Shown here piece by piece: positions 12,710 to 63,387 of a stretch of DNA of 64,000 nt. A model generated the notes under the pieces. The model was given only the letters and a program-made list of their open reading frames with translations, ran no database searches and had not been told where the DNA came from. Source of the stretch: Capitulum mitella (lineage: Eukaryota > Arthropoda > Thecostraca > Pollicipedomorpha > Pollicipedidae); assembly GCA_030062745.1 (NCBI GenBank), contig CP099849.1:12374144-12438143 (forward strand), written 5' to 3'. Numbering within the stretch: the first letter of the stretch is position 1; every line of letters starts with the position of its first letter. The position numbers and the translations under genes are program-made.

Positions 12710-15700
12710 GGGGCGTTCCAGAAACAAATCGACCAGGCTCCTACCAAAATTAACACACCATAGTCTCGAAATTTGATGACATTTGGTCCGGTGTATAATC
12801 TGTGGCTGAGATTTCATATTTTCACGTCTCAGGTCGGTCGGACAGGCGGTTTTTGCGCCAGAGCAGTTTGAAATTTTGAGATTTGATGATTTTTGGCCAA
12901 ACCTTTGGTGAAATAATGTGTATTGGCTCAATAACCAATGACCATGTTTTCAGAAACTGGGTATCGTGGTAATGGCGAAATGCTACATCTTTCTGCTGTT
13001 CGCATTTCCCCAAATAACTTTCCCGTTTTATTTGACATTGAAACCTATTTTGAAAGTCAAATTTTTAAGATGTGGCCAGTGATTCGGATTGAAACCTTTT
13101 ACAGGCAAAATGTACTCCATGGAATTCTCATTTGTTTCAGATCGAGAGAAGCCCCCCATTTTAGTTTTTAATGTTACAAATTGCACCTCAAATTCGCGAT
13201 ACTTTCGTCAAAAACGTCCTTATCGGGAATTTCAGACCTGGGCCGGCTAAAAGTAGTATGAAAGACCAGCGAAAGTAGTCCTGAACGCCCCAGGTCATTG
13301 TTTTCTTCCATGATTGTCATCTGTCGCCCGCTGCGAAGATGTAGTTATATTTTTCTCCACGATAGCTGGTGGTGCTGCAGGGCTTGACCCTCATTGCACG
13401 CCACAGGGAAGTGCATGGCGGGGGCGGTAAAGCGTTAAAGCTCAGTTTGCACGAGCGGTAATGCGTCGCGGACTCGACCGACACGGAATCGACGGTCGCA
13501 CGGAATGACGCCACCCAGACTTCGATGACTTGACACTTCGATGGACTCCACCGGCAATGCAGTCAGCTAACTGCGTTATCATCACATCCCGCAGTTCCAT
13601 TTCTTGGTTTCTCCTTTGAGGTGTGAAATTTGTGAGGACTGTCGATTGGGCAGGCTGGGAAGATTTTTTGTCCCTTTGGCCCGCCCGCGCCAGTCCTCAG
13701 ACCCACTTTTCTTGTGCCCTTCTCTCTTCCAGCTCGGGAACCGTTAGGAAAAAACAAAAACGCCTTAAAAGTAGAGCTTACATTATGTAAAACAAATCAG
13801 TTAAACTAAAACATCTCATAGTCATTCGCAACTAAAAGTTGTGGAATTTTACAACGCGCTCTTCCACCCGGGCCATGCAGCAGCGGACGAAGACTGCCTG
13901 TTGTCTCACGCTGTCAGCCCAGCCGTACTAGCAGGGGAGGAGACAAGCATCATACAACTTTCTTTGTCCCACAGACATAGCTATAAACATAATTATATAA
14001 TTTTTAATTATTATATATATATATTTAATTTTTTATTTTATTTTATATTTTTAATTATTATTATTATAACATAATTAATAATTTCCAGGAAGACACTAAT
14101 GGGCTGGGCTTGGAACGCACATCATCCCCCTTAATTTGTATATTTATATGCCAAAATATGTCAAAATATTGAATAAAAAGGCCATTTTAAGTGTCTTTTC
14201 AACTTCTCAACCAAATGTTTTGGGCTCAAGTAGGTCCTTGAATTGAGATGACCTTCAATGACTTTTAATGACCTTAATCCCCTTGAGGGCGATAAATGGT
14301 ACACATCAGGGATACTTCGGGTGAAAAACGCAATTCATGCCATGAAACTAAAAAAGTTGCCCCACATACCTGTAGCTAAAAGCGAGCTGAAAAAGGAAAA
14401 TAACTTTGGCCTCGGTCTGACGTCCGGTGCATTGACTGAGGCCAATCATCTCTTTTCACTTATCCTCATGATGCCATAGTATAACTGTCTAGTCCCAAAA
14501 TGCATTTTTTAAGAAGAAATGCACAGAGAATAAAGTTTCTCGAAAACGGCCAAACTTTTCCTTGATCTCCGGCCACTGACCTAACCTTTTCGAGAAATTC
14601 CCAGATAAACTTTTCAAGGCCATTGACAATATAAGGTCATGTACCACAACACATTTAATACTTTTGAATTCCTAAACTTTCTTTGACATGGTAGTATAAA
14701 CTTTTTTGACACGGATCCCTTTAACCAGACCTAGGTCATTCAATTGACTCGCCCAAAATTAACGTTTCTCCAAAATGTGCGCAATAAGTGCAAGTAAAGG
14801 TACTGAAAATTTGGCAGCGTCACGCGCCGCAGTTTTCTCGGTATTCTGAAATACATAAGGGGTGTGTCCAAACACATCCGCAGCGTTAAAGGCGCCTTTC
14901 TCGACCGCCGGGAAGAGGATGGAAAATTGGCCTCCTAGTGAGAGAGCTCAGAAACGACCCAGATGGTCACTTCAGGTATTTCCGCATGCAATGGAAAACA
15001 TTTAATACCATACTGAGTCAGAAGTTGCCACAGCTTTATCTGTGTTGACCGCAGTATTTTCGAAACAAATGCGGCCACCAGTCTGAAGCTACGGCAGGGA
15101 TGCAGCCAAGGGGGAGAGACCATGTGGGCCATGCCCTCCCCCCTGAGCCAGGCGGTCTTCACTAGATATATGGCTGTTTCTCAGGAATACGTAACAGTGA
15201 TCATACATATATATATGCTGCAAAAACAAGCATTATATGTTTTTCTGTGCAATAAATATGAGGTCAGTTACATAAAATGACCGTTCTTGTGATAAATTTT
15301 ATGTTTTCCCAATGGAATATGGCGACATTTGACGTTTGGCCATCCTGAAGAAAATTCTGGCTACCTGCTTGAGCTACGGTGTCAAACGCAGTCATCATAT
15401 TCGTGTATGGAAAATATTTCAATGATGTGGTGACGAGCATATCAGCTACTCTCATTTCCGTCCTTCTTCGTCCATTTTGACAGCCAAGCCGATTGGGCTC
15501 GCCACACCGCCTGTCCACTGCCCAGTCTGCGACCGCATCGGCTGAAAACTTCGATTTTTTTCAATTTAGCGGTCGGTTTCGTCGCGAACGACACCGAGTG
15601 ATTCTTTTACATGTATTTCTATTCAATTTTTTTCCATAACATCATCATGTGATAAACTGACACGCATACCATAAACCAATTATATCTCTAATTCTTATAC

Positions 15701-16236
15701 CATTTTTGGCCGGTAGCGTACGGGGAAATGCCCAACGAGGATATTTTCAACCAAGATGTCATAAATTATACGTGTATGTACAGTTTTAAACACAAAAATG
15801 GGAATTTTTCTCGATTTAAAACGAATCAAAACCCTTTGGAAAACATGTTACCTGTGCACAGTTTCAATTGGAATCACCGACCACACTCTCAATATTTGAT
15901 TTTGAAAATATGTTTCAAGACCAAATACAGATCGAACAAAATTTTAAAAATGCGAATAGCAGAACACCACAACATGTCGTCCTCATCACAACAATATCCG
16001 GTTTTTGAAAATGTGAGCATAGGTTTCTGAAATAATATACATTACCTCGCTAAAGCTTTGGCCAAAAATCATAAAATTTAAATGTTCAGAGTGCTCTAGC
16101 GTAAAAACCGATTTTCAGACGGAGCTGAGAAGTGGAAATCTGACACCTCAGCCATTGATTACCCCCTGGACAGAATTTCATTGTGATTTGAGACTATAGC
16201 GTGTTACCCCCTGGTCGATCTGAAGTGAAATGCCTC
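12710..16236. mobile_element. Long-terminal-inverted-repeat element, copy 1
   Basis: Non-coding element with terminal inverted repeats of about 470 bp (about 12,710-13,180 against about 15,770-16,236), clearly alignable with indels. The termini read GGGGCGTTCC and, inverted, GAGGCATTTC. The flanks are TTTT on both sides, too simple to call a target duplication. A second copy lies at 21,278-25,339. The interior includes an AT-rich expansion (about 13,980-14,090) absent from copy 2, and a hAT MITE nested at 15,095-15,371. No transposase frame is visible, so it is non-autonomous; the superfamily is undecided. Confidence 0.75.
15095..15371. mobile_element. hAT-type MITE nested in the long-TIR element
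   Basis: 277 bp, from CAGGGATGCAGCCAAGG to GGCTACCTGCTTG, flanked by a perfect 8-bp duplication AGCTACGG (15,087-15,094 and 15,372-15,379). The second long-TIR copy has the uninterrupted sequence CTGAAGCTACGGTGCC at about 24,460, an empty site that confirms insertion. Confidence 0.9.
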
Positions 16237-21277: not shown

Positions 21278-24200
21278 GGGGCATTCCTGGACAAATCGAC
21301 CGGGCACTTACTAATATTAACACACCATAGTCTGAAATTCTGGCGAAATTTGGCCTGTTGTGTAATCTGTGCCTGGGATTTCATCTCATTTATTTCAATT
21401 TTTTTTATTTTTACTTCTTAGCTCGGTCGAACGCTCGGTTTTTATGCCGGAACAGTTTGATATTTTAGATGACCATGCCGCATGGCATTGGCCCGCATTA
21501 CACGCCACAGGGAAGTGCGTGGCGGGGGCGGTAAAACGTCCAAGCTCATTTTACATGAGCGGTAATCCGTCGCGGACTCGACCGACGCGGTCTCGACGGA
21601 CGAACGGAATGACGCCATCCAGATTTCGAAGACGTGAGTGACACCTCGACGCACTCGACCGAAAATGCAGTCAGCTAACTGCGTTCAGCTGATCATACCC
21701 CGCAGTTTCGTTTCTTGACTTCTGCTTTGAGGTGTGAGATTTGTAAGGACTGCCGATTGGGCCGGTTAAGAAGATTTTTTGCCCCTTTTAACCCGCCCCA
21801 GACTGGGGGGACGGTTGACCGCCACCCTGAGGTTTTCCCAAGATTGCGAAAAAACGAACAAACGCAGCGCCACGAAACTTTGTCTTCCTCTTGCTTGATC
21901 ATTTTTTCACCTCGTATTCAATTTTCCTCCCCAGGTCATGTAAGGTGTCTGACCTAGGTCAGGACAAATGAACTGATGTCCAAAAAAGTTTAACGCCCTG
22001 TAACTTTTTCGCAAAACATGACATCACAATAAAACTTTCAAGGACTAGAGATTCTGATAAGTGCGACACATTTTCTATCTCGGAATTTTTCGCAAGTGTC
22101 CGGGACATTGACCTAAGGTCAAGCCCATTTTCAACATAAGTCGTCCTTTTTCCGAAAATTGACGGAATTTTTAAAACAATTTGAGTGTGAGGAGACCCAG
22201 ACATGCAGTTTCCGTCAATGGACAAAGTTTTAGTGACCTCCGACCACTGGCCTGAGGTTAGGTCACGAATAAGTGTTATGAGTCAAAATGCACTGCCATC
22301 AAAATCGGCGATGAATGACTCAGGTCAGGTTGAAAATGGCAGAACTGGCTTGCACAGTTGCGACTAATACCAACAAGTTTAAAATGTTTCAAAAATTGCA
22401 TATTTTGCACATAAAGAGACTTTCGCGAATAAAGCTCCGTCAGTTGTGTAGATTGTTAACTACTGAGTTTGTCCAAAATCAAAGCATGAAAAATCATCCC
22501 AAGAAACAGAAGGATCAAGAAACAACTTTTGGAATGGCATATTTACGAAAAAACGCAGTTTTTATTTCATTCCAGTTATTTTATCGAAAAAATAAATTAG
22601 TTTCCGTTAATTTCATACCGACTTCATCGACGGCGCCCGCCGTGCAGCGTAGCAAAAATCACCGTGTCTTTAATTCAACGTTTCTGCGTATGCATTAAAC
22701 AAATCGGAGAGATCAGACGTGTATCGGCATCTGCGGACTTTTACCTGTCCGCTGGTGCCTTCATCTAGACTTTATTAGTCACAGCCCTTGAGATCCAGGC
22801 CGTTTCTGGGTCTCATGCAGATAGCTATGAGAAAGCATATGTAGGGCGTAAATGGCTTCCATATTATCCAAAACTAAAAATGGCATCAGTTGCAAGCTGC
22901 ACTTGGCACAGGCTTTCCAGCGGTGTGCTTATTTTATCGTGCGACCAACCGTTCGTGAGTCAGACGGGGACGGTCAACCGTCCCCCCCCCCACACACGGG
23001 CGTGCATGGCGCCGACTGCCAGTCGGACGCGGGTTAACCCGTCTTGTACCAGTCGTCAGATCTACCTTTCCCGTACCTGGGGGTGTCTGAACACTAGTCC
23101 CTTTCCAACTCGCGAACCGTAAGAATAGAAAAAAACGTCGCAAAAGTACAGCTTACATCATGCAAAACAGATCAATTAGACTAAAAAAATCTCGTTGCCA
23201 TTTGCAGATAAAAGTTCATGCTTTTACAATGCGCTCTTTCGCCCACGCCATGCAGTAGCAGGTGAAATCTGCCTGCTGTCTCACCCTGTCAGCCCCGCCG
23301 TACTAACAGAGGAGAAGACAAGCAGCATACTGCCTTCTTTGTTCCACAAAGCATGATTATAAGCATAATTGCAAGAGGACACGACGGCGCTGTATTTGAC
23401 ACATATCCTTTGTAATGGAAGGGGCTTAGGGTGCACACAACCACCGCCTAATTGGTACATTTATGGGCCAAAACGCGCCAAAATATGAAATAAGAAACAT
23501 TTTATGTGTCTTTACAACTTCCTGACTAAACTTTTTGTGATCAAATAAGTCCTTGAATCGAGACGACCGTCTGTGACTTCAAGTGACCTTGACCTCCTCG
23601 AGTGCGATTAGTGAAATGGTATACATCAGGGCCATTTCGGGGGAAAAAGACAATTCATGCCATAAATCTAAGAAAAAAATGTTTTCCCAAAATGCTTGCA
23701 CACAACTCAGAAACGGAAGTAAGACCACTGGAAAATAATTTTGGTCTCGTCCTGAACTCCGATGCATTGACTGAGGTGAACCATCTTTTTTCAGTCATGC
23801 TCATGATGCTCTGCTATAACTGCCTTCTCCCCAAATGCAGTTTTTGAAAGAATAAAAATACAGGAAATACAATTTGGCAAAAGTGGCTCAACCTTTTCTT
23901 GAATTCTGGTTATTGACTTAACCTTTTCGGGAATTTCCAAGAAAAATGTTTTAAGGGCATTGGCAATTTAAGGCCATATGTCAAAACACAATTTAATATC
24001 TTGGAATTTGTCAATTCTATGGCAGTCCGAATTATTTTTGACATGGGTACGCTTTAACCAGAGCAAGGTCATTGATCTCACCCAACCCGAAATCAACCTT
24101 TGTCCTAAATGTGAAATACGTGCTAAAATATATGCAAAAATTGGTACGTGTGAAACATATGTGAAAATAGGTATTGAAAATCTGGCAGCACCACTCGTTG

Positions 24201-25339
24201 CCGTTTCCTCTCTTTTCTGAAAAACCTAACTGGTGCTTCCAACCACATCAGCAGCATCAAAGACGTCGTTCTCGACCGCCTGGGAGAGGACGGAAAATTG
24301 GCCACCTTTGTGACAGGGTTGAGAAACGGCCCACGAGGCCACTTCAGGTATTTCCGCATGCAATGGAAAACATTTAATACCATACTGAGTCAGAAGCTGC
24401 CACAGCTTAATCTGTGTTGACCGCAGTGTTTTTGAAACAAATGCGGCCACCAGTCTGAAGCTACGGTGCCAAACACAGTCATCATCTTAGTCTGTAAAGA
24501 ATATTTCAACGATGATATCATGACAAGCATATCAGTTATTCTCATTTCCGTACCTCTTTGTCCATTTTGACATCCAAGACGATTGGACTCACCGCATCGC
24601 CTGCCCACAGCCCAGACTGCGACGGCATCGACGGAAAACATGGATATTTTCAAGTTTGTGGTCGATTCCGCCGCGAACGACACCGAGTGTTTCTTGTACA
24701 TGCATTTCTGTTCAATGTTTGTTCATAACATCAAGTGATCAGCTGACACGCATACCATAAACCATTTATACATGTATATATATATATTTATATACACATA
24801 TATATGTCATTTTCCGCCTTTAGCGGACGAAGAAATGCCCAACGAGGATATTTCAACCGATATGCCATGGATTAAATATATATCTATAGTGTTAAAGACA
24901 AAAATGGGGTATTTTTCTCGCTTTATAACGAATCAGAACTTTCTGGAGAACGTTTTACCTGTTCACAATTTCAGTCGGAATCATTGACCACACCCTCAAA
25001 ATTTGGCACTGGAAGTAGGTTTTACAGTCAAATAAAAACCAACAGAAACTTTAGAAAATGCGAATGGCAGAACATAGCAGTATTTCGTCCTCAGTACAAG
25101 GATATCCAGTTCTTGAAAATGTGATTTTTGGTTACTAAATGAGGTTTTGGTTACTGGGTTGCGCCAAAAATCATCAAATTTAAAAATTTCAGATTGCTCT
25201 AGCGCAGAAACCAGTCTTCAGACGGAGCTGAGAAGTGGAAATCCGACGTCCCAGCCGCAGATTACCCTCCGGGCAGAATTTCATTACAATCTGAGACTAT
25301 AGTGTGTTAACGCCTAATGGATCTAACGTGAAACGCCCC
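21278..25339. mobile_element. Long-terminal-inverted-repeat element, copy 2
   Basis: Second copy of the family at 12,710-16,236, in the same orientation. It starts GGGGCATTCC and ends GAAACGCCCC. Most of the inner left inverted repeat is deleted, so sequence jumps from about 21,470 to the homologue of about 13,360 in copy 1. A TTAA-flanked element (21,792-23,033) is inserted in it. Stretches around 24,345-24,460 are almost identical to copy 1. No transposase frame. Confidence 0.75.
21792..23033. mobile_element. TTAA-flanked (piggyBac-type) non-autonomous element, family B copy 1
   Basis: 1,242 bp between two TTAA tetranucleotides (21,788-21,791 and 23,034-23,037), with ends CCCGCCCCAGACTGG and, inverted, CCCGCGTCCGACTGG. 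It interrupts long-TIR copy 2; the corresponding site in copy 1 (about 13,675) is continuous. TTAA target duplication with a CCC terminus is the hallmark of piggyBac-superfamily elements. No transposase frame. It carries paired AGGTCA-type half-sites (TGACCTAGGTCA near 21,950; TGACCTAAGGTCA near 22,110). Confidence 0.85.
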
Positions 25340-28690: not shown

Positions 28691-29251
28691 ATGCGTAGGC
28701 TAGGTATCCATAAGATTATTTAACCCATTGCCGACGGGGAGGGGGTTGACTGCCTCCTCTCCCCCTGAGGTTTTCCCAAGACTGCGAGAGAGCGAGCAAA
28801 CACAGCACCACCAAATTTTGTATTGGACCTATGTCCAAAAACGTTTAGCGCCCTCTTCCTTTTTGGGGGAACATGATATCGCAATAAGACTTTCAGGGAT
28901 TAGACACCTTGAAAGCTAAAACAAATCTGCTATCTCAGATTTCTCCGAAACATCCGGGTCTTTGACCTAAGGTGAAGCTCATGTTCAAGACTTGTCATTT
29001 TTTTCGGAAATTCACGGTTTTTGTGTAACATTTTGAGTGTGAGGTGATTCAGATATCCAATAAACGTCACTGGGTAAAATATTAATGGCCTCCAACCGTT
29101 GACCTGAGGTTAGGTCACCAGTAACTGTTATGAGCCAAAATGCACCGTTCAACCGCCATCAAAACTGGCGATGAACGACCTGGGACGGATAGAAAATGGA
29201 AGAATTGGCTCCCACAGCTGCAAATGATACCAGGAAGTTCAAAAGGTTCAA

Positions 29252-30459
29252 CCCTATTCCCGGCAGGGGGCTGAATCTGCCCCTCTCGGGTTTTTTGCTT
29301 GCCAATTCCAGGCTTTTTAACGCAGCTTCACCGAAACTTCGTCACTTTTCCTAGCTATTCCTTGTACGCGCTGTGGGAAAAATTTCAAAATTCTATTTTG
29401 ATCAGGGGCGGAGCCAGGCAACGTTTTTGGGAGACACCTCAGGCCATTTTTGGCCATGTTGAGGGTAAAAGGAAAATGTCTGCCAAAAACAGCGTTTTTA
29501 AGATAGAATTTAAATTTATGTGAATGTATACCTAAATAGTTGGGCACTGCGCAGATGTAATTTTGTTCATCTGAGGTCCTTTTACAAGGTCAGGTCAAGG
29601 CCAAAATTAAAAATTTGTTTTTTTGCAATAATTTCGGCGCCGTTTTTTGAAATGCCAAACCCAGATTGTATATGACGTAGAAGGGTGCCCTCTACTTGTG
29701 TACCAAGTTTCAGCGTGATATCTGGTCGGGTCAAGAAGCTATGACCTAAAATATCAGTGCACGTACCCTATATCGCAATAGCCATAAAATGATTTTTTTG
29801 AAATAGAGTGGATTAAAATGATTGAAAACGTTTACAGATAATATTAAGTGCACACGAGATCATTCTAAGTGACCCCAAGGTCACTGGAGGTCATTTAAGG
29901 TCAAAGGTCACAAGTTGATCTGAAGAACGTGTGACCATGACAGTTTCCCCTTTTTCATGTCCCTGGCACCACCTATGCTAACATTATACAAACATTGTGA
30001 TGCGATTAGTACTTCTTTAGCATAACATGACTAGCAGAAGCCAAAAAAGTGTTTTTGCCTTTTTTGTTCGTTCAGTTGTTGGAAAACTAATCCTCCTATT
30101 TTTGAAACCCTGTGAACGCCCATGAATTTTCTCAAAATTTCAGATTTGTGTACCCATGGTAAAAGCCCTATCCATAATCTCTCGATTCATGCCAGTTTCA
30201 TTGACATCGGTCGATAAACAAATGAGTTATAACAAGTCCAAAAATACCCCTGATTTTGACATTTTTGCCCCCCTGTGTCCATACATTTTAAAAATTTTGA
30301 AAATTTCTTTTTATAAAAATGTAGTTCATGTCATGGCAAATCGAATGCCGTTTGTTGCGATGAAATCGGATGTGTAGTTCTCGAGATCTCAGGGGGGGGG
30401 GCCGAATCCGCCCCCCCGGCTGGGAATCGACCATATCGTTTAGCCCTCCGGGAATAGGG
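29252..30459. mobile_element. TTAA-flanked non-autonomous element, family A copy 1 (nested)
   Basis: 1,208 bp with ends CCCTATTCCCGG and CCGGGAATAGGG. The right flank is TTAA (30,460-30,463) and the left is TCAA, one mutation away. The sequence is largely the same as the copy at 58,500-59,709. No transposase frame; piggyBac type by TTAA target and CCCT terminus. It carries four AGGTCA half-sites at 29,878-29,910 and a poly-G/poly-C stretch near each end. Confidence 0.87.
29878..29910 (+). promoter_or_regulatory. Cluster of four AGGTCA half-sites (DR4-DR4-DR1)
   Basis: Half-sites start at 29,878, 29,888, 29,898 and 29,905. The last pair, AGGTCAAAGGTCA, is a perfect DR1, the type bound by HNF4/RXR-class nuclear receptors. 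The same array is conserved in the second element copy at 59,132-59,164. Binding has not been shown. Confidence 0.5.
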
Positions 30460-31085
30460 TTAAACAATTACATCTTTGGGGAATAAACAGGTTTTCGCGA
30501 GTAAAGCCCCGGCAGTTGTGTAGATTGATTGCTACTGATTTGTTCCAAAATGTAATCATGGGAAGCCAACAGAAGAACCACTAGAACCAAAACACACCAC
30601 TTGGCGAGGCTTATGTCGCCAGAATAAGGGAACGCTTAAACTAGTTACCTGTAATCCCATCCCGTGTTCGGCAACGGCGTCCGCCGTGTTTTGACGCGAG
30701 GATCACAGTTCCTTTAACTCAGCGTTTCGGTGTATATATCAAACACATTGGAGAAATTAGACGTGTATCGTCATCTGCGGACTTTTACCTGTACGACTTT
30801 ACATCGTTGGTGCCTTTACCTAGGCTTACTAATCACAGTCCTTGAGATCCGGGCCGTTTCTTGGTTTCATGTGAGCGGCTATCAGAAAAAAATATATAGG
30901 GCATAAATGGCTTAAATATTATCCAACATTCAAAATAAGGCCAGTTTCGAACTCTAATCGTCACGAGCTATCAAACGGTATGCTTATTTCTTTGGCGCGA
31001 CAACCCGTTTGCCAGTTAGAAGGAGAGCGCCTCCCCCCCCCTGGTCGGGCGTGCATGGCGCTGACTGCCGTCGGGCAGGGGTTAA

Positions 31086-44985: not shown

Positions 44986-47050
44986 TCGGGCGTGTCTGGT
45001 GTTAACCGTTTCATCTGCTACATTACCATTAATCATATACTAAAGCATGACATTCTATAACGTCTGACCACGTAATATCCCTTCTGCATCAGGAAACCTG
45101 TGGCTCAAAGCCTGTTTCACGTGAGTCACTTAGATACCAGTCGGCGGACACCCCCGCAGTGCATTGGCCTAATATATGGCGGAAGGTTCTCTCACTACGT
45201 CAAGGGTTCTATCTTGGCGACCAAAAATAAGAGGACGGGGCAATACATGCTGTATAGAAGAAAGACATGGGTGTAGTTCTTATCATCTGTGGCCATACAA
45301 GGCGTTTTTGCATTGAAAACAAACATTTTATTTCAAGAGGTTAAATCAGGCCAGCCGGGATCAAATGGGATTAGTTCACCCTTGGCAAGTAAGTTTGTAT
45401 CATATATTAGTGCTTCCGAAGCATACATGACTACCAATGAACATAACACGACTGTAAACCAAAGAGTTGTCCCTTGTTTACGGATATACAAATTCGGTAT
45501 GAAACATGACCTAACCTCAGGTCACGAGTCAAAGGCAGGGTGTATTTTAAGAGCGAATCACTGGTGGGATTTCGGGATTTCGGGCCGTCGAATTATGGGT
45601 AACATACAAAATCTGGATATTACACCGATCTTGTTTTGTCTGACCCTGTCGGGGTTGGGATTGGACGGGCTGGTGTGGCGAGATTAGCGGTCACACGTGG
45701 CTGAAAGTTGGGCCGTCTCAAGGCAGGGCCTATTTTACATGTTAACTGAGGGGGGGGGGCAAATGCCCCCTCAGTCGGACACTTTGCCCCCTCAGTCAAG
45801 AGCCGTTGCCCATGCAAAGAAAAAAAGCAGCCACGTGTCATAGCGTAACCAGGAGAGTATTCCATAAAGCGCTGCGCACGAGGTCTCGTGAAGCAGCATC
45901 TTGTCAACGAAGGATGTGTTGAATCAATGAGTAATGTGGGAGCACACTTAGAAGCATCACTTTGTAATACGTATCGCAGGCACACCTAGTGACCGCTGGC
46001 GAGCGTGTTTCGTAATTAGTACGCCGGCACCCGATGCGCGATTGTTTGGTGAGTGGCCAAGGCGTTTCATTGCATCGTAAGCACGTTAAAAATGATGATG
46101 ACCATCTTTGATGTGTTCAAGCGCAAGAAAACTGAAGGGTGAGCTGGTGGGCAGGGCGGTTTCGCTGTGGTGAGATAATGTTTATATGAATGCGGTAACA
46201 GTCTAGCAGTGCTGTAGTCATCATCAATCATCCTGATCCGAAAACCCTGCTAAAATCCCAGTACCTAATTGGTAGAACTTCATTGAACTAGGCGGTTAAA
46301 CCCGAGTTTTACGCGAAGAAAACAGAAAATTAATCAGTCATATATTAAAACCGTTACTCTTGCTGCTCCTTGTGCATGGGCTTGAGCATCCCATGACCAT
46401 GCTTCATCTGCTTCACGAACATGGCATAGCCAAGACTGCACATAATGACGAGTGTAAATGATATCTCACTGAGGCGGGGCTAAGGCGAATATTTCAATTT
46501 GAGGTGACTTTTTTATTTTGGGGCCGATAATCTGGAAAAGGAGCAGTTTGTTCCGCCTGTGTTGGGACAGCTTTTGCACTTTTGCGTAGTGTTGAAAAAC
46601 ATATGGCCAAATTTCAGTGAGAAACTGTATTTTGGGGATAGATGAGATCAACAGAAACTATCCCTCACAGGCAACCTACTGCCTCATTTAAGGAAGAATC
46701 GAAGCTGCCGCAACATCTCGTCAATATCCTGGCCATCTTTTGCAGACTGTGACTTATATATTTGAAATACCACACCTTGCCATGCCACGGTAACCCACGG
46801 TGCCGGTCTGGCAATTTCCCGCGCTTTCTTAGACGTCAGGATATTTAAGGACCACCTGCGTCAATGCAGAAAATACCTTTTGTAACGGAAGTCTGTGCCA
46901 CTATGGCTGCACCACGAGAAAAAAAGCCGAACTTTGGTTGACCGGTGCTCAGAACTGCCTTCGCGGGGAGAAGTGCTGCAGCGATATTTTCAGTCCCACC
47001 GTGTGGATAGGCTTACACAGAGGTAGGTCAAAACACAGATCGTCCGCGAA

Positions 47051-49125
47051 ATGATGAGGGTGTGGAACAAAGCCCGTATTCTCACTGCACCGGAACGGAA
47101 AGTGATAAAGAAGCTCAACAGGAAGTATGACCAGTACCAAGCTGTCATCAAAGGCAAATGCTGGAGGTCCACCCCGGAAACTGACAAGAAGAATGGATTT
47201 AGGGACAACCTCAAAAACCTTTTTTGGCCTTGCCCTTGTCGGCACCATGAAGATCATCAAAACCAAGAGGATAAAGACATTCTCCAGGCCCAAAGGGAGC
47301 CAGGTCGCCGAGGCGTCATGGTGGTATTCGATAAGTTCCCCTTCTGAGAAGGAGGAGCGAGCTCTTCGACGACAACAGTAGGCCGAAACTTTAAAGGGCC
47401 CACCGTTAGATTAAACAGTAGACCGAGCAGGAGGCAACTGCCCAGTTGGAATACTCGTCTACCGACAACACACAACTGACAGATCAGGATGACCCGCAGC
47501 CCTTGGCCATACCTTCGAAGCGGCCCTGCAGGAGAGCCAAGAACATCGTCACTCCTGGTCAGGCAGCAGCCCCTCGATCGGACCAAGCTCAATGATCACT
47601 CTGGAGTCCACTTCCTATCGGCGACGGCTTCGGCCCTCGGCCACGACTCCTCTGAACTGGCGATCACAGAAGCTCGGCCAGGCGGGCACGGAGATCGCAA
47701 AGGAAAGCCACTGCGGACGAAATCTAGCATTCTTTCTCCGCGCCACCCAACCTGGTGGTCCACTGGGACGGCAAACTGTTAACTGACGATGGAAAGGAAA
47801 AGGTGGATCGACTCCCTGTCATTGTAACTGGTCCAAGAAGTGCCGCCAAGCTCTTCGGTGCTCCGAAGTTTGGAAGTAGAGCCGGAGCAACGCCAGCCGA
47901 CGTTGTCGCGCATTGTCTGGAAGAGTGGGAGGTTTCGGACAAGGTCGTCGGCATGAGCTTCGACACCACCTCCAGCAATACTGGACAAGTTGTGGGAGCA
48001 AGCACGCATCTTCAACAGAAGCTTGAGTGACAGCCTGTTCACTTCGCTTGTCGTCATCATATCTTCGAACTGATGGAAGAAGCGGCTTTCTCCACGCGCT
48101 TCGATCCGTCCTCGGGACCGGGATATCCTTGTTCAAGCGCTTCAAGAAGAGATGGAGGCTCATTAATTGGAACAAGTTTGAACCCATGATGTATGAAGAC
48201 CTGGAGCCAGCAGTGGTCGAGACGTTTTTCTCCTCCAAGGGTCGTGTCGTCGCCTTCTGCCGTGAGAAACTCGCTGAAATCCAGCCTAGCGATGATTATC
48301 GTGAGTTCTTTGAGGTCTCGATCATCCCCTTTGGTCAAGAGCCTCCACGGGGAATCAAGTTCCGCAGCCAGGTGCTCTCCAACGTGCCAGATGGATGGTT
48401 CCATCGTGCCAGATGGATGGGGCGCATAATCTGCGGGATCAAGATCTTCTTGCTTTGCCATCAGTTCTCCGTGACTCTCAGTGAACTGGGAGCACTCAAG
48501 CGCTTCGTCTCTTTCATGGTTGTTTTGTATGTCAGTGCATGGTTCTGCTCTTCATCGGCGGTCAACGCTCCCGTGCACGACCTGGCCGCTCTGCAAAGCC
48601 TGATTTGAATGCTGAAATCTCGAAGGGGATCTCCAAGGAGCTCGCCAATCACCTGTTATCTATTATGACATTAGATACGACATATAATTTATTATAACAA
48701 TCACCTATCATGGTACCCCAGCGAAGAACTGACTGGTGTGTCGTTCTTCGACGAGGGCGTGCCATGTGAAATGAAGAGGAGGATGATCGCGGCACTCCAG
48801 GAACAGGGATCGTAGAGTCCTCCCAGCGTGCGCAGGTGGATCTCGCAGCAAGAGGAGGTTCTCGTCTCAGGAAGATCATCGTCGACTTCATTACCGCAAA
48901 ATCGGTGGGCAACCTGAAAGCCTACGGCATCAACATGGACTTCCTTGCCGCCGATCCCGCTGACTGGGAGACAGCACCTGGCTCCAAGAACGCTAAGGAA
49001 GTCCTGTGCGGGATCGCGGTAGTTAGCGACTTCGCCGAACGAACTGTGGCTCTTATCCAAGTGTACAATAAGGTACTGACGAAGGATGAAAGGCAAAAGC
49101 AGTACCTGCTGCAAGTCGTCGAATA
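47051..49125 (+). pseudogene. Broken transposase gene of hAT-like copy 1
   Basis: Frames in the order of a single long transposase-like protein, separated by stops and frameshifts. The N-terminal piece has an EDKDILQAQREPGRRG motif (47,051-47,347). The central piece runs from VHWDGKLLTDDGKEK to GMSFDTTSSNTG (47,755-48,030), then a CRHHIFE motif in another frame near 48,050. A large C-terminal piece follows (48,130-48,608), and the last part ends around AVVSDFAERTVALIQVYNK (48,836-49,126). I recognise this pattern as a protein family scattered through invertebrate genomes and usually left uncharacterised. The D-T-T-S-S-N-T-G motif looks like a catalytic-core strand of RNase H-fold transposases. 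Not functional as it stands. Confidence 0.75.
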
Positions 49126-49642
49126 GCATCGTCGCCAGGACCCCGAGACCACAAAGAGGGTCGAATTCCCACCATTCCCACCTAAGCCACACTGCTGCCG
49201 ACAGGACCAGTGGCCTCTAACCTGAGACAGAATGTGAAGTGTCTTTCGATCCGGTGTGTCAAAGGAGTACTATGATGTGCATTTTATGCATATCGTGCGC
49301 TTGGTTTAAAAAACTGAAGCACAACACACGTTTGGGGGCATTTCAGACACACCTCTCCCTGAACGAATCTCCCAGGGATCACAAGTCCATGGAAAATGTG
49401 TTCTTGCTGGGGATAAATGGAATGGTGTTCTTTGACTTTAATGGGCTCGGAATGCACAAAAGCCGGCGCAAATTTCATCAAAATAAAATGAAATCCAGCA
49501 CAAACGACATACAATCTTCGTGTGAAAGTGGTTAAGAGTGTTGGACCAAGGCCATATTTTGTACACATGATTTCCTCCAAAATATATATCAGTTAATGAC
49601 AGAGCGCTCTGGAAAAGTGGAAAGTGAAAAGTCGTAATTCGC

Positions 49643-56059: not shown

Positions 56060-57677
56060 TATGTCTCTGGAGGAAATCATGTGTGCAAAATATGGCCTTG
56101 GTCCAGCACTCTTAAGCACTTTCACACGAAGACTGTATGTCGTTTGTGCTGGATTTTATTTTATTTCAATGAAATTCGCGCCGGCTTTTGTGCATTCCGA
56201 GCCCATTAAATTCAAAGAACACCATTTCATTTATCGCCAGTAAGAACTCATTCTCCATGGACTTGTGATCCCTGGGAGATTCGTTCAGGGAGAGATGTGT
56301 CTGAAATGCCCCCAAACGTGTTTTGTGCTTCAGTTTTTTAAACCAAGCGCACGATATGCATAAAATGCACATCATAGTACTCCTTTTGACACACTGGATC
56401 GAAAGACACTTCGCATTCTGTCTCAGGTCATAGGTCACTGACCCTGTCGGCAGCAGTGTGGCTTAGGTGGGAATGATACTTCAGTCCTCTTAGTGGTCTC
56501 GGGGTTCTGGCGACGATGCTGTTCGACGACTTGCAGCAGGTACTGCTTTTGCCCTTCATCCTTCGTCAGTACCTTGTTGTATACTTGGATAAGAGCCGCA
56601 GCTCGTTCGGCGAAGTCGCTAACTACTGCGATCCCGCACAGGACTTCCTTAGCGTTCGTGAAGCCAGGTGCTGTCTCCCAATCAGCGGCATCGGCGGCAA
56701 AGAAGTCCATGTTGATGCCGTAGGCTTTCAGGTTGCCCACCGACTTTGCGGTAATGAAGTCGACGATGATCTTCCTGAGACGAGAACCTTCTTTTCTGCG
56801 AGATCCACCTGCGTTCGCTGGGAGGACTCTACGATCCCTGTTCCTGGAGTGCCGCGATCATCCTCCTCTTCATCTCACACGGCACGCCTTCGTCGAAGAA
56901 CGACACACCAGCCAGTTCTTCGCTGGGGCACCATAATAGGTGATTGTTATAATAAATCATATGTCGACTATAATGTCATAATAGATAATAGGTGATCGGC
57001 AAACTCCTTGGAGATCCCCTTCGAAATTTCAGCATTCACATCAGGCTTTGCAGAACGGTCAGGTCGTGCACGGAAGCGCTGACCGCCGATGAAGAGCAGA
57101 ACCATGCACTGACGTACAAAACAACCATGAAAGAGACGAAGCGTTTGAGTGCTCCCAAATCACTGAGAGTCACGGAGAACTGATGGCAAAGCAAGAAGAT
57201 CTTGATCCCGCAGATTATGCGCCCCATCCATCTGGCGCGATGGAACCATCTATCTGGCACGTTGGAGAGCACCTGGCTGGGGAACTTGATTCCCCGTGGA
57301 GGCTCTTGACCAAAGGGGATAATCGAGACCTCAAAGAACGACGATAATCATCGCTAGGCTGGATTTCGGCGAGCTTCTCACGGCAGAAGGCGACGAAACG
57401 ATCATTAGAAGAGAAAAACGTCTCGGCCACTGCTGGCTCCAGGTCTTCATACACCATAGGTTCAAACTTGTTCCAATCAATGAGCCTCCATCTCTTCTCG
57501 AAGCTCTTGAACAAGGAGATCGCGGTCCCGAGGACGAACCGAAGCGCGTGGAGAAAGCCGCCTCTGCCACCAGTTCGACGATATGATGACGACAAGCAAA
57601 GTGAAAAGGCCGTCACTCAAGCCTCTGCTGAAGAAGCGTGTTTGCTCCCACAACTTGTCCAGTATTGCTGGAGGTGG

Positions 57678-57740
57678 TTGGGCGCCGAATGACCCTGCAG
57701 TCGGTGCGCCCCTAAGCCCCAATAACCAACCAACCAACCA
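57678..57740 (+). mobile_element. 5'-truncated SINE-like retroposon
   Basis: 63-bp insert ending in AATAACCAACCAACCAACCA and flanked by an 11-bp target duplication GCTGGAGGTGG (57,667-57,677 and 57,741-57,751). hAT copy 1 has a single GCTGGAGGTGG at this site. A short body, a simple-repeat tail and a target duplication longer than 10 bp fit LINE-driven retroposition of a SINE fragment. Confidence 0.75.
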
Positions 57741-58499
57741 GCTGGAGGTGGTGTCGAAGCTCATGCCGACGACGTTGTCCGAAACCTCTCAGTCTTCCAG
57801 ACAAAGCGCGACAACGTTGGCTGGCGTTGCTCAGGCTCTACTTGCAACTTCTAAACACCGAAGAGCTTGGCGGCACTTCTTGGACCGGTCACAATGACAG
57901 AGTCGATCCACCTTTTCCTTTCCATCGTCAGTAACAGTTTGCCGTCCCAGTGGACCACCAGGTTGGGTGGCGCGGGGAAAGAATGCTAGATTTCGTCCGC
58001 AATGGCTTTCCTCTGCGATCTACGTGCGCGCCTGCCCGAGCTTCTGTGATCGCCAGTTCAGAGGAGTCGTGGCCGAGAACCGAAGCCGTCGCCGATAGGA
58101 AGTGAATTGCAGAGCGTTCATTGAGCTTGGTCCGATCGAGGGCTGCTGCCTGACCAGGAGTGGCGATGTTCTTGGCTCTCCTGCAGGACCGCTTCGAAGG
58201 CATGGCCATGGGTTGCGGGTCATCCTGATCTGTCAGTTGTGTGTTGTCGGTAGGCGAGTATTCCAGCTGGGCAGTTGCCTCATGCTCGGTCTGCTGTTTA
58301 ATCTAACGGTGGGCCCTTTAAAGCTTCGGCCTACTGTTGTCGTTGAAGAGCTCGCTCCTCCTTCTCAGAAGGGAACTTATCGAATACCACCATGACGCCT
58401 CGGCGACCTGGCTCCCCTTGGGCCTAAAGAATGTGTTTATCCTCTTGGTTTTGATGATCTTAATGGTGCCGACAAGGGCAAGGTCAAAAAGATTGTTAA

Positions 58500-59709
58500 C
58501 CCTATTCCCGTCAGGGGGGGGGGGCGGAATCCGCCTCCCTCGGGTTTTTTGCTTGCCGATTCCAGGCTTTTTAACGCAGCTTCACGAAACTTGGTGACTT
58601 TTCCTAGCTATTCCTTCTACGCGCCGTGACAAAATTTCAAAATTCTATTTCGCTCAGGGGCGGAGCCAGGCAACGTTTTTGGGAGGCACCTCATGCCATT
58701 TTTGGCCATGTTGAGGGTAAAAGAAAAATGCCTGCCAAAAACAGAGTTTTTAAGATAGAACTTAAAACTTTATATGAATGTATAGCTAAATAGTTTGGCA
58801 ATGTGCATATGTAATTTTGTTTATCTGAGGTCAATTTACAAGGTCAGGTTAAGGTCAAAAGTTAAAATTTGTTTTTTCACAATAATTTCGGCGCCGTTTT
58901 CTCAAATGCCAAACCCGGAACAAATATGACGTAGAAGGGTGCCTTCTACTTGTGTACCAAGTTTCAGCTCGATATCAGGTCGGGTCACGGAGCTATGATC
59001 TAAAATGTCAGTGCGCGTACCCTAAATCGCAAAAGCCAAAAAATGAATTTTTTGGAATAGAGTGAATTCAATCGATTAAAAACGTTTACAGATAATCTTG
59101 AATGCACACGACATCATTCCAGGTGACCCCAAGGTCACTGGAGGTCATTTAAGGTCAAAGGTCACAAGTTGATCTGAAGAACGTGTGACCATGACAGTTC
59201 CCCCTTTTTTATGTCCCTGGCACCGCCTATGCTAACATTATACAAACATTGTAATGCGGTTTGTACTTCTTTAGCATAACATGACTAGCAGAAGCTAAAA
59301 AAGTGTTTTGGCCTCTTTTGTTCATTCAGTTATTAGAAAACTAATCCCCCTATTTTTAAAACCCTGTGAACGCCCATGAATTTTTTTCAAAATTTCAAAT
59401 TTGCATACCCATGGTAAAAGCCCTATCCATAATCTCTCGATTCATGCCAGTTTCATCGAAATCGGTCCATAAACAACGGAGTTATAAGAAGTCAAAAGTA
59501 TCCCCCATTTTGACCTTTTTGCCCCCCTGTATCCACAAATTTCGAAATTTTGAAAATTTCTTTTTATAAAAATGTAGTTCACGTCACGGCAAATCGATTG
59601 CCGTTTGTTGCGATGAAATCGGATAAGCAGTTCTTGAGATCTCAGGGGGGGCCGAATCCGCCCCCCCTGCCGGGAATCGGCCATACCGTCTAGCCCTCCG
59701 GGAATAGGG
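58500..59709. mobile_element. TTAA-flanked non-autonomous element, family A copy 2 (nested)
   Basis: 1,210 bp, perfect TTAA at both sides (58,496-58,499 and 59,710-59,713), ends CCCTATTCCCG and CGGGAATAGGG. It interrupts the transposase gene of hAT copy 2; copy 1 is uninterrupted at about 47,210. Close sister of 29,252-30,459 in the same orientation. No coding capacity; piggyBac type. Confidence 0.92.
59132..59164 (+). promoter_or_regulatory. Cluster of four AGGTCA half-sites (second element copy)
   Basis: AGGTCA at 59,132, 59,142, 59,152 and 59,159, the same spacing as in the copy at 29,878-29,910, including the perfect DR1. Confidence 0.5.
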
Positions 59710-61271
59710 TTAAGGTTGTCCCTAAATCCATTCTTCTTGTCAATTTCCGGGGTGAACCTCCAGAATTTGTCTTTGGTACTGGTCAAGCTTCCTGTTGAGC
59801 TTCTTTATCACGTTCCGCGCCAGTGCAGTGAGAATACCGGCTTTGTTTCACACCTTCATCATTTCGCGGACGATCTGTGTTTTGACCTACCTCTGGGTAA
59901 GCCTATCCACACGGTGGGACTGAAAATATTGCTGCTGCACTTCTCCCCGCGAAGGCAGTTCTGAGCACCGGTCAACCAAAATTCGTTTTTTTTTTCTCGT
60001 GGTGCAGCCATAGTGGCACAGACTTCCGTTATAAAAGGTACTTTCTGCATTGATGCAAGTGGTCCTTAAACATCCTGACGTCTAAGAACGCGCGGGAAAT
60101 TGCCAGACCGGCACCGTGGGTTACCGTGGCATGGCAAGGCGTGGTACTTCAAATATATAAGTCACAGTCTGCAAACGATGGCCAGAATATTGGCGAGATG
60201 TTGCGGCAGGTTTGATTCTTCCCTAAATGAGACAGTAGGTTGCCTGTCCGGGATAGTTTCTGTTGATCTAATCTATCCCCAAAATACATTTTCTCACCGA
60301 ATTTTGGTCATATGTTTTTCAACACTGCGCAGAAGTGTAAAAGCTGTCCCAACACAGGCAGAACAAACTTCTCCATTTCCAGGTTATCGGCCCCAAAATA
60401 AAAAAGTCACCTCAGATTGAAACATTCGCCTTAGGCCCGCCTCAGTGAGATATCATCAACATTTGTCATTATCTGCAGTCTGGGCCATGCCATGTTCGTT
60501 AAGCAGATGAAGCATGCTCATGGGATGCTCAAACCCATGCACTAGGAGCAGCAAGATTGACGGTTTTAATAATGACTGATTAAGTTTCCGTTTTCCTCGC
60601 GTAAAACTCGGGTTTAACCGCCTAGTTCAATGAAGTTCTACCAATCAGGTACTGGGATTTTAGTAGGGTTTTCAGATCAGGATGATTGGTGATAACTACA
60701 GCACTGCTGGACTGTTACTGCATTCATATAAACCTTATCTCACCATAGCGAAACCGCCCTGCGCACCAGCTCGCCCTTCAGTTTTCTTGCGCTTGAACAC
60801 ATCAAAGATGGTTATCATCATTTTTAACGTGCTTACGATGCAATGAAACGCCTTGGCCGCTCACCAGACAATCGCGGCATCGGGTGCCGACGTACTAATT
60901 ACGAAACACGTTCGCCAGCGGTCACTAGGTGTGCCTGCATTACGTATTATAAAGTGATGCTTCTAAGTGTGCTCTCACATTACTCAGTGATTCAACACAT
61001 CCTTCGTTGATAAGATGCTGCTTTGCGAGCGCAGCGCTTTATGGAATACCTTCCTGGGTACGCTAGTACACCTGGCTGTTTTTTCTTTGCATGGGCAAAG
61101 GATCTTGACTGGGGGGGCAAAGTGTCCGACTGGGGGGGAATTTGCCCCCCCAGTTAACATGTTAAAATAGGCCCTGGTGTCTGACCCAAGAAGCACATCC
61201 ATGTTTGCATTCTCTTTTCGTGGTTGTCGGTGACAACTTTCCGTCCCACCAGTGGTGATGATCCCCCTCAC

Positions 61272-62114: not shown

Positions 62115-62237
62115 TGACGCACGAGTGCTGGTTCTGCACCAGCTGAAAACCGGCGCGACACGCGCAACGGTACGAGCCGTCCGTGTTGGTGCAGTCCTGC
62201 TCGCAGCCACCATTCTGGACCGAGCACTCGTCCATAT
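62115..62237 (-). CDS. MEGF6-like EGF-repeat protein, exon B (calcium-binding EGF)
   Basis: 123-nt exon, phase 1 at both ends. Acceptor tctctgccgcag before AT ATG GAC GAG; donor GTCA before GTGAGT. It encodes [16 protein letters not shown] then [15 protein letters not shown], a complete six-cysteine EGF domain with the N-terminal D-x-D-E-C calcium-binding motif and the C-x-[DN]-x4-[FY]-x-C hydroxylation pattern. Its 3' splice site has been amplified upstream as a 26-bp minisatellite (62,223-62,535). Confidence 0.9.
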
Positions 62238-62535
62238 CTGCGGCAGAGAGTACTAGTCTATGTCTGCGGCAGAGAGCACTCGTTCATATCAGCGGCAGAG
62301 AGCACTAGTCCATGTCTGCAAACAGCAATCACCAGGCAAAGAGCACTCGTTCATGTCTGCGGCAGAGACCAATGGCCTATCTCTGCTGCAAACAGCAATC
62401 ACCTATGTGTGCAGCAAAGAGGACTCGTCTATGTCTGCAGGAGAGAGGGCTCCATATCTTCGACAGACAGCATTGGCTCCCATCGAGGGAAAGTTTATGT
62501 CTGCGGCTGATGATATTCGTTCATGTCTGATTTGG
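62223..62535. repeat. 26-bp minisatellite built from the exon B 3' splice site
   Basis: About nine units, several exactly 26 bp, others carrying an insert around CAAACAGCAATCACC. On the minus strand each reads close to CTCTCTGCCGCAGACATGGA followed by CGAGTG: the pyrimidine tract, the AG and the first codons of exon B. The unit nearest the exon is the real acceptor. Confidence 0.88.
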
Positions 62536-63266
62536 TGACCATGCATCTCTTTGACAGTTAACATTAAAAAAAGGACAGAAGTACATGACCATAAAACAAC
62601 CTTGTGGAAAAGAAATGTTCGGTTAATTTTTCGGCATAGATATCCTGTAACCTAACCTATGCCTACGACTTAATTTTCAGCATTCCTTTTCCCAGCCCTT
62701 CGCCTGTATTTCCTTTCCGCACGGTCAGAAACACCGTTAGGTCTATTCTGCACTTACTATCCAAATAGCCTTTATGCTAAAAATGGGTCAGCTGAATTTC
62801 TCTGGACCTATTACAGCTGTTCCAAAACTTTAGGAAATGAGGTAAAACATGAAAACTAAATTTCCAGAATGTCGTAAGCCTTGGGGTTGTTCTTCAGTCA
62901 GGATATCCAAACTAACATTGCACTAAGTTGTGCAAAAGTCATCACTGTTACATCACGTCCTCATTTTCAGGCAATTCCAATAAAATATCGCATGCGATTT
63001 CCATAGAACTACCATGCTACATTTCGCCAATAGGTAGCGGCATTTTACCGATCCGTAAAGATCCCTTACGGCCTGCCGTGTGTGATGGCTATCGAATTCC
63101 TTGAGTGCTTGCTGTTCGTTCGTGCAGCACCATGTTTGTTATTATATCCACATCGACTTCGAAGCACGCAATCCAGATCAGATAGGCGCTGCCTAACCAT
63201 AGATCACATCAAGATAAGCCATCAGCAAACATTGGCCGGAGGCGGCCCGGGTGGCCGCGTTCAGAC
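62536..63266 (-). other. Intron A-B, no further feature seen
   Basis: AT-rich intron sequence between the minisatellite and exon A. Confidence 0.6.
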
Positions 63267-63387
63267 CTTGGCAGTCGGTGCCGTTCAGCAGGAGGTAGCC
63301 GACGCGGCACGAACACCGGTAGCTGCCCGGAATGTTGTCACACTGGTGCTGACATCTGTTGGCGCTCTCAGAACACTCGTCCACGTC
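63267..63387 (-). CDS. MEGF6-like EGF-repeat protein, exon A (calcium-binding EGF)
   Basis: 121-nt exon. Acceptor gcgtcccgcag before GAC GTG GAC (phase 0); donor CCAAG before GTCTGA (phase 1, a weak donor). It encodes DVDECSESANRCQHQC then DNIPGSYRCSCRVGYLLLNG and TDCQ: six cysteines, a D-x-D-E-C calcium site and the Asp/Asn hydroxylation pattern. The phase-1 end makes the Asp of exon B's DMDEC. The gene continues upstream past the window end. Confidence 0.85.

Follow-up and report, generated by a model that had tools for sequence, protein, structure and literature searches.

How is an exon spliced when its 3' splice site stands at the end of a row of copies of itself? The question is raised by exon B, a predicted exon of an EGF-repeat gene on the minus strand of a 64,000-nucleotide stretch of the barnacle Capitulum mitella (the window), which lies on contig C11 of a 477 Mb assembly with 16 contigs. 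The start of exon B lies inside a 26-bp minisatellite, which also covers about 290 nt of the intron upstream of it. One unit, CTCTCTGCCGCAG/ATATGGACGAGTG, is made up of 13 nt of acceptor and 13 nt of exon and holds the pyrimidine tract, the CAG and the codons for DMDEC. We think that this array is probably a "mirage", the name given to border-spanning repeats in amphioxus (PMC3087553), which grew from the exon edge and whose decoy acceptors would be mostly ignored or would lead to mRNA decay.

Tandem Repeats Finder (TRF) detects arrays with a 26-bp period at 62222-62319 (score 140) and 62336-62447 (score 98) as well as a higher-order duplication of 67 bp (score 186). Wraparound alignment traces units from 62529 down to exon B, eight of them in or near register and two degenerate, and the intron part of the array alone scores 230, whereas none of 100 Markov shuffles exceeded 34. 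The ten upstream units share 14-24 of their 26 positions with the exon copy, and this identity drops with distance (Spearman -0.69, p 0.03). Exon-derived sequence, namely the DMDEC codons and variants of them, is present in the units, indicating that the seed was the exon border. When u1-u7 are compared, all seven units agree in the C column and six each in the A and G columns, against an average of 5.6 in the other columns, which is no clear excess. Folded as RNA, 121 nt of the array were not more stable than shuffled sequence (z 0.46). The array is not a case of tandemly duplicated exons, as the units contain 13 of the 123 exon bases. That it is a copy of a dispersed repeat was rejected: a genome search with the unit pattern, allowing up to three mismatches, shows no second cluster. 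It gave seven matches, five of which are in the window array, and a reversed-pattern control gave one. Of the two remaining matches, one is at an EGF-like exon (L069) that has no array of this kind and the other at an EGF acceptor on C2; the latter is at the edge of the analysed DNA and was left out of the border test described below.

There are 21 AGs within the 290 nt preceding exon B. We scored 66 AGs as acceptors, covering intron A-B and the first bases of exon B, and defined a strong decoy as one whose score exceeds that of the true site or falls short of it by no more than 1 bit. Five decoys qualify (Table 1), and all five, read from exon A, reach a stop before exon B; those at -26 and -78 encode DID and DMD before the stop. 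The window array is a tandem repeat spanning an exon boundary, with units that carry splice signals, some of which are intact, as in a mirage. A preliminary description of the locus had already proposed a 26-bp unit across this border with pyrimidine tract, CAG and DMDEC codons, in about nine copies, several of which keep a good acceptor that would usually break the protein if used. TRF and wraparound alignment recover the same unit, nine is a fair count, and the five decoys and their stops bear out the rest. The description also suggested that changes in repeat number could tune splicing, which for this locus is a conjecture: published mirages are reported to leave splicing undisturbed (PMC3087553, PMC3902484), and each of the five strong decoys leads to a premature stop.

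A second array of this kind is present elsewhere in the genome. Outside the window, exon B is matched best by exon B' on C6, with 76% identity and a matching exon A' upstream. Like exon B, exon B' starts inside an array whose period is 26 bp and whose register is the same (TRF score 108, 3.2 copies). Wraparound alignment finds about nine upstream units there and an intron-only score of 180, whereas the highest of 60 shuffles reached 28. Both arrays fit their own unit much better than that of the other (248 versus 94 in the window, 180 versus 70 on C6), and the cross scores are still above shuffles. We compared the halves of seven window and six C6 units, leaving out the most degenerate ones: the intron halves have a similarity of 0.80 and 0.67 within the arrays and 0.46 between them, and the exon halves 0.69 and 0.73 within and 0.66 between. 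Outside both arrays the introns (736 and 286 nt, same strand) have no 9-mer in common and share five 8-mers. Between window and C6, exon B has a synonymous divergence (dS) of 1.25 and exon A one of 0.72, with a wide error at about 40 codons each. Either an old shared array was homogenised separately in each gene, or one border was expanded twice with an equal period. An old whole-genome duplication in barnacles, with paralogue peaks in synonymous divergence (Ks) at 0.8-1.0, has been reported (PMC11331182). That C11 and C6 descend from such an event is not supported by the one synteny check made, in which an LDL-receptor-A exon of C11 has its best non-C11 paralogues on C13 and not on C6.

Arrays at exon borders recur beyond this pair. 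EGF candidates were taken from two overlapping lists with 64 and 149 matches. Testing 73 of them gave 51 usable acceptor and 62 usable donor candidates, the remainder being without a candidate or at the edge of the analysed DNA. A further 16 EGF matches, three of which were at an edge, added six acceptors and 12 donors from the other 13. Strings of EGF domains within a single exon on C5 were left out, as domain repeats mimic arrays, and one C5 match apart from them was kept. Borders with a self-similarity of at least 32 were counted as positive; this threshold was set after the scores were seen, and the null maxima of the positives are 20-24. On this basis arrays occur at 5 of the 57 acceptors and at one of the 74 donors, with the proviso that some listed EGF matches lie in one exon, so that the tested set may include a few false borders. 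LDL-receptor-A exons were surveyed in two C11 stretches, with up to two candidate sites per side. An array crosses the acceptor in one of the 15 examined (16 were listed, one of them at an edge), indicating that border arrays extend beyond EGF exons, and no donor candidate there scored above 20.

The difference between acceptors and donors has p 0.085 for EGF exons alone and p 0.046 for the pooled counts (6/72 versus 1/89). The C6 paralogue was found by homology, so we also give the pooled value without it, p 0.089; the acceptor bias is only suggestive. A weaker donor case at C10:25340870 (L009; score 28, null maximum 22) has short copies of the 5' splice site downstream of the exon, and the donor-side repeats there and at the C2 donor (L074) were recognised by eye after weak to moderate scores. 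C10:25334889, with a survey score of 28, was not counted, as its match is the adjacent EGF exon 314 nt upstream.

The most homogeneous border array found is that on C15, with 16.6 copies of a 74-bp unit and 95% matches in its main part. It lies within an array of 9.8 copies of 148 bp (L064:6268-7735), which ends about 9 nt inside the exon, and most of its copies carry acceptor and branch-like motifs, making it the best candidate for length polymorphism. With the LDL-receptor-A array left out and phase 1 assumed, the five remaining acceptor arrays hold 28 strong decoys in total, of which 26 lead to a stop before the exon, two shift the frame and none is open in frame.

Table 1. Features of the exon B locus (positions in the window) and arrays at other exon borders (contig positions)
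Feature	Position	Strand	Remarks
Exon A (EGF_CA, DVDECSESANRCQHQC...)	63267..63387	-	121 nt (splice-site scoring); no array detected at the acceptor
Intron A-B	62238..63266	-	1029 nt
26-bp border-spanning minisatellite (EGF acceptor array)	62224..62529	-	clean to ~62470, degenerate further out; includes 67-bp (26+41) duplication 62268-62403
Decoy acceptor -197	62435..62436	-	score 10.77, best in intron; stop before exon B
Decoy acceptor -148	62386..62387	-	score 6.67; stop before exon B
Decoy acceptor -119	62357..62358	-	score 6.03; stop before exon B
Decoy acceptor -78	62316..62317	-	score 7.51; in frame with exon B, yet TAG after 3 codons
CTGAT, sole branch-point-like yTnAy in array	62288..62292	-	A is 52 nt before exon B, 26 nt before decoy -26 exon start
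Decoy acceptor -26	62264..62265	-	score 7.40; stop after 3 codons (TAG)
True acceptor AG (CTCTCTGCCGCAG/ATATGGACGAGTG)	62238..62239	-	predicted; score 6.98, rank 5 among 66 AGs scored
Exon B	62115..62237	-	123 nt, phase 1 at both ends; first 13-16 nt within array
EGF acceptor array, C6 paralogue	C6:13199569		exon B'
EGF acceptor array	C15:17216225		
EGF acceptor array	C2:28076289		degenerate
EGF acceptor array	C2:36496118		~33 bp, three copies
EGF donor array	C2:28097773 (L074)		short copies of 5' splice site region just downstream of exon
LDL-receptor-A acceptor array	C11:1350767-1351045 (L076:7268-7546)		69-bp, four copies

The structure at exon B is real but of a known kind, so the statement in the preliminary description that no such arrangement had been described does not hold. 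Border-spanning repeats are reported for the amphioxus genes Adh3, BflGb6, BflGb9, troponin C and PGBD5 (PMC3087553, PMC3902484), and a donor-side case is human IFI6 (PMC4526556). The amphioxus units in Adh3 and the globins are 10-160 bp long, reverse-transcription PCR of these genes suggests that regular splicing is undisturbed, unit number differs between two haplotypes, somatic instability is cited at Adh3, and intron gain from mirages is proposed (PMC3087553). The report which added the PGBD5 and troponin C mirages states that those of Adh and troponin C yield no aberrant mRNAs (PMC3902484). In amphioxus as in C. mitella both acceptor and donor sides are affected. In contrast to amphioxus, the arrays described here come from an arthropod genome and involve EGF and LDL-receptor-A exons; moreover, the same border of two paralogous exons carries an array, with a 26-bp period in both.

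The minisatellite of human IFI6 (6-16) supplies multiple splice donors (Turri et al. 1995, cited in PMC4526556 and PMC2572611) and is similar in that an exon-border minisatellite multiplies a splice site. Its units are reported to be donors which are used and give several mRNAs, whereas the unit of exon B is an acceptor and all strong decoys lead to stops, so the locus is not of the IFI6 type. Variable internal tandem repeats in human segmental duplications are likewise minisatellites, may sit at exon-intron boundaries and may alter gene structure, including intron formation (PMC2812944). These are described as varying between recent human paralogues and as half coding, whereas the exon B array is almost wholly intronic with diverged units. 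Our literature search found no arthropod example of a border array, which is weak evidence of absence as most subscription papers were outside the search. In NAGNAG acceptors, two AGs stand 3 nt apart, and in these and other tandem acceptors several AGs likewise compete at one exon. At exon B the spacing is 26 nt and the whole signal is copied, with strong decoys at -26, -78, -119, -148 and -197, and the NAGNAG class was rejected for this locus. What is new is the recurrence of border arrays in one genome and their presence at one border of two paralogous exons. This extends mirages from amphioxus genes to a barnacle genome, with two paralogous cases at one exon, and makes three questions testable: how the spliceosome gets past so many good AGs, whether new introns or exons can arise from border minisatellites, and whether such arrays are selectively maintained.

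If exon B carries a mirage, slippage or unequal exchange would have made tandem copies of a stretch composed of the last 13 intron bases and the first 13 exon bases, and the resulting array would have expanded into the intron. Selection on protein and splice site would hold the exon-side copy constant, whereas copies further out would drift and at times re-expand, as the 67-bp duplication suggests. The exon-proximal acceptor is presumably the one used, since no other connects to the EGF exon through an open frame and since a short exon is favoured when it is defined together with the downstream donor. Decoys may be ignored, or transcripts with early stops may be removed by decay. The similar arrays at other exons and the reported normal splicing of amphioxus mirages are consistent with this reading.

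Several observations weigh against it. The acceptor scores are approximate, as is the matrix behind them, and four other AGs outscore the true acceptor. Acceptor choice is reported to prefer the first AG (PMC7317903), so that splicing should be disturbed by the 21 AGs in 290 nt. The only branch-like motif in the array, CTGAT, fits decoy -26 and not the true site; if it is used, the reported first-AG preference (PMC7317903) would favour this decoy. The motif sits in unit 2, where CTG stands in place of the CAG found in most other units, and another branch-like motif, TTAAC, is found 321 nt upstream. That CTGAT, if used, would favour decoy -26 is the real puzzle of the locus. In addition, the identity-distance gradient is not significant in the C6 array (five units, p 0.55) and is absent in the C15 array.

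A functional role of the array, in which decoys act as a bank of poison acceptors whose use gives stop-bearing mRNA, so that unit number or state sets the level of full-length protein and is kept by selection, is unlikely. The position of the branch-like motif suits it, as do five decoys that score near or above the true site and all end in stops, and the 26-bp array at the equal border of the C6 exon where the compared introns share no 9-mer. However, the distal units show the drift expected of neutral sequence, conservation in the C, A and G columns is not clearly above that in the others, stops are expected by drift in copies so diverged, and amphioxus mirages are reportedly spliced normally (PMC3087553, PMC3902484). 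A more specific version, in which the B and B' arrays are one array that predates the gene duplication, was kept by turnover anchored at the exon edge while intron similarity vanished, and sets protein dose as such a bank via mRNA decay, appears improbable.

It is similarly improbable that the array weakens recognition of exon B and causes occasional skipping with the loss of one EGF domain. The size and phase of exon B mean that the frame would be kept, and skipping is a frequent outcome when a mutation creates an AG between branch point and acceptor, as in 24 of 49 such NF1 mutations (PMC7317903), but the reported amphioxus mirages do not have this effect (PMC3087553, PMC3902484). Finally, an assembly artefact, to which tandem repeats are prone, or chance similarity is very improbable, as differences of 2-12 positions between units and exon copy are not explained by repeated mis-assembly of one read stretch, the shuffle maximum is far below the observed score, and the C6 paralogue has a second array.

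The exons are predicted, with splice sites set by the approximate acceptor matrix, open frame and EGF motif. Pfam EGF_CA matches exons A and B in two stretches (E 7.4e-18 for the pair), and exon B is called from this match, its open frame and a GTGAGT donor. More cysteine-rich candidate exons follow downstream, reaching about 40.3 kb; Pfam found nothing in exon C and three of four later exons scanned, and the fourth has one sub-threshold EGF_2 match. No arrays were found at the other borders of the gene, where ten acceptor candidates score at most 20 and ten donor candidates at most 16; the acceptor of exon H scores 20, the same as its null maximum. Abundance of Chitin_bind_4 is a hallmark of arthropods, and the genome has at least 150 matches above the cut-off (150 among 627 candidates scored).

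Between candidate exons C and D, the window contains inverted copies of a repeat of about 3.9 kb at 45724-49579 and 56068-61176, which are 91-94% identical. A 1.2-kb piece, which recurs at 29266-30463 (90%), breaks the second copy at about 58.5-59.7 kb and resembles a nested insertion. Diverged direct repeats (73-86%) are found among 13373-16234, 21476-25337, 21976-22392 and 28831-29251, and may derive from copies of a transposon or from an old segmental duplication.
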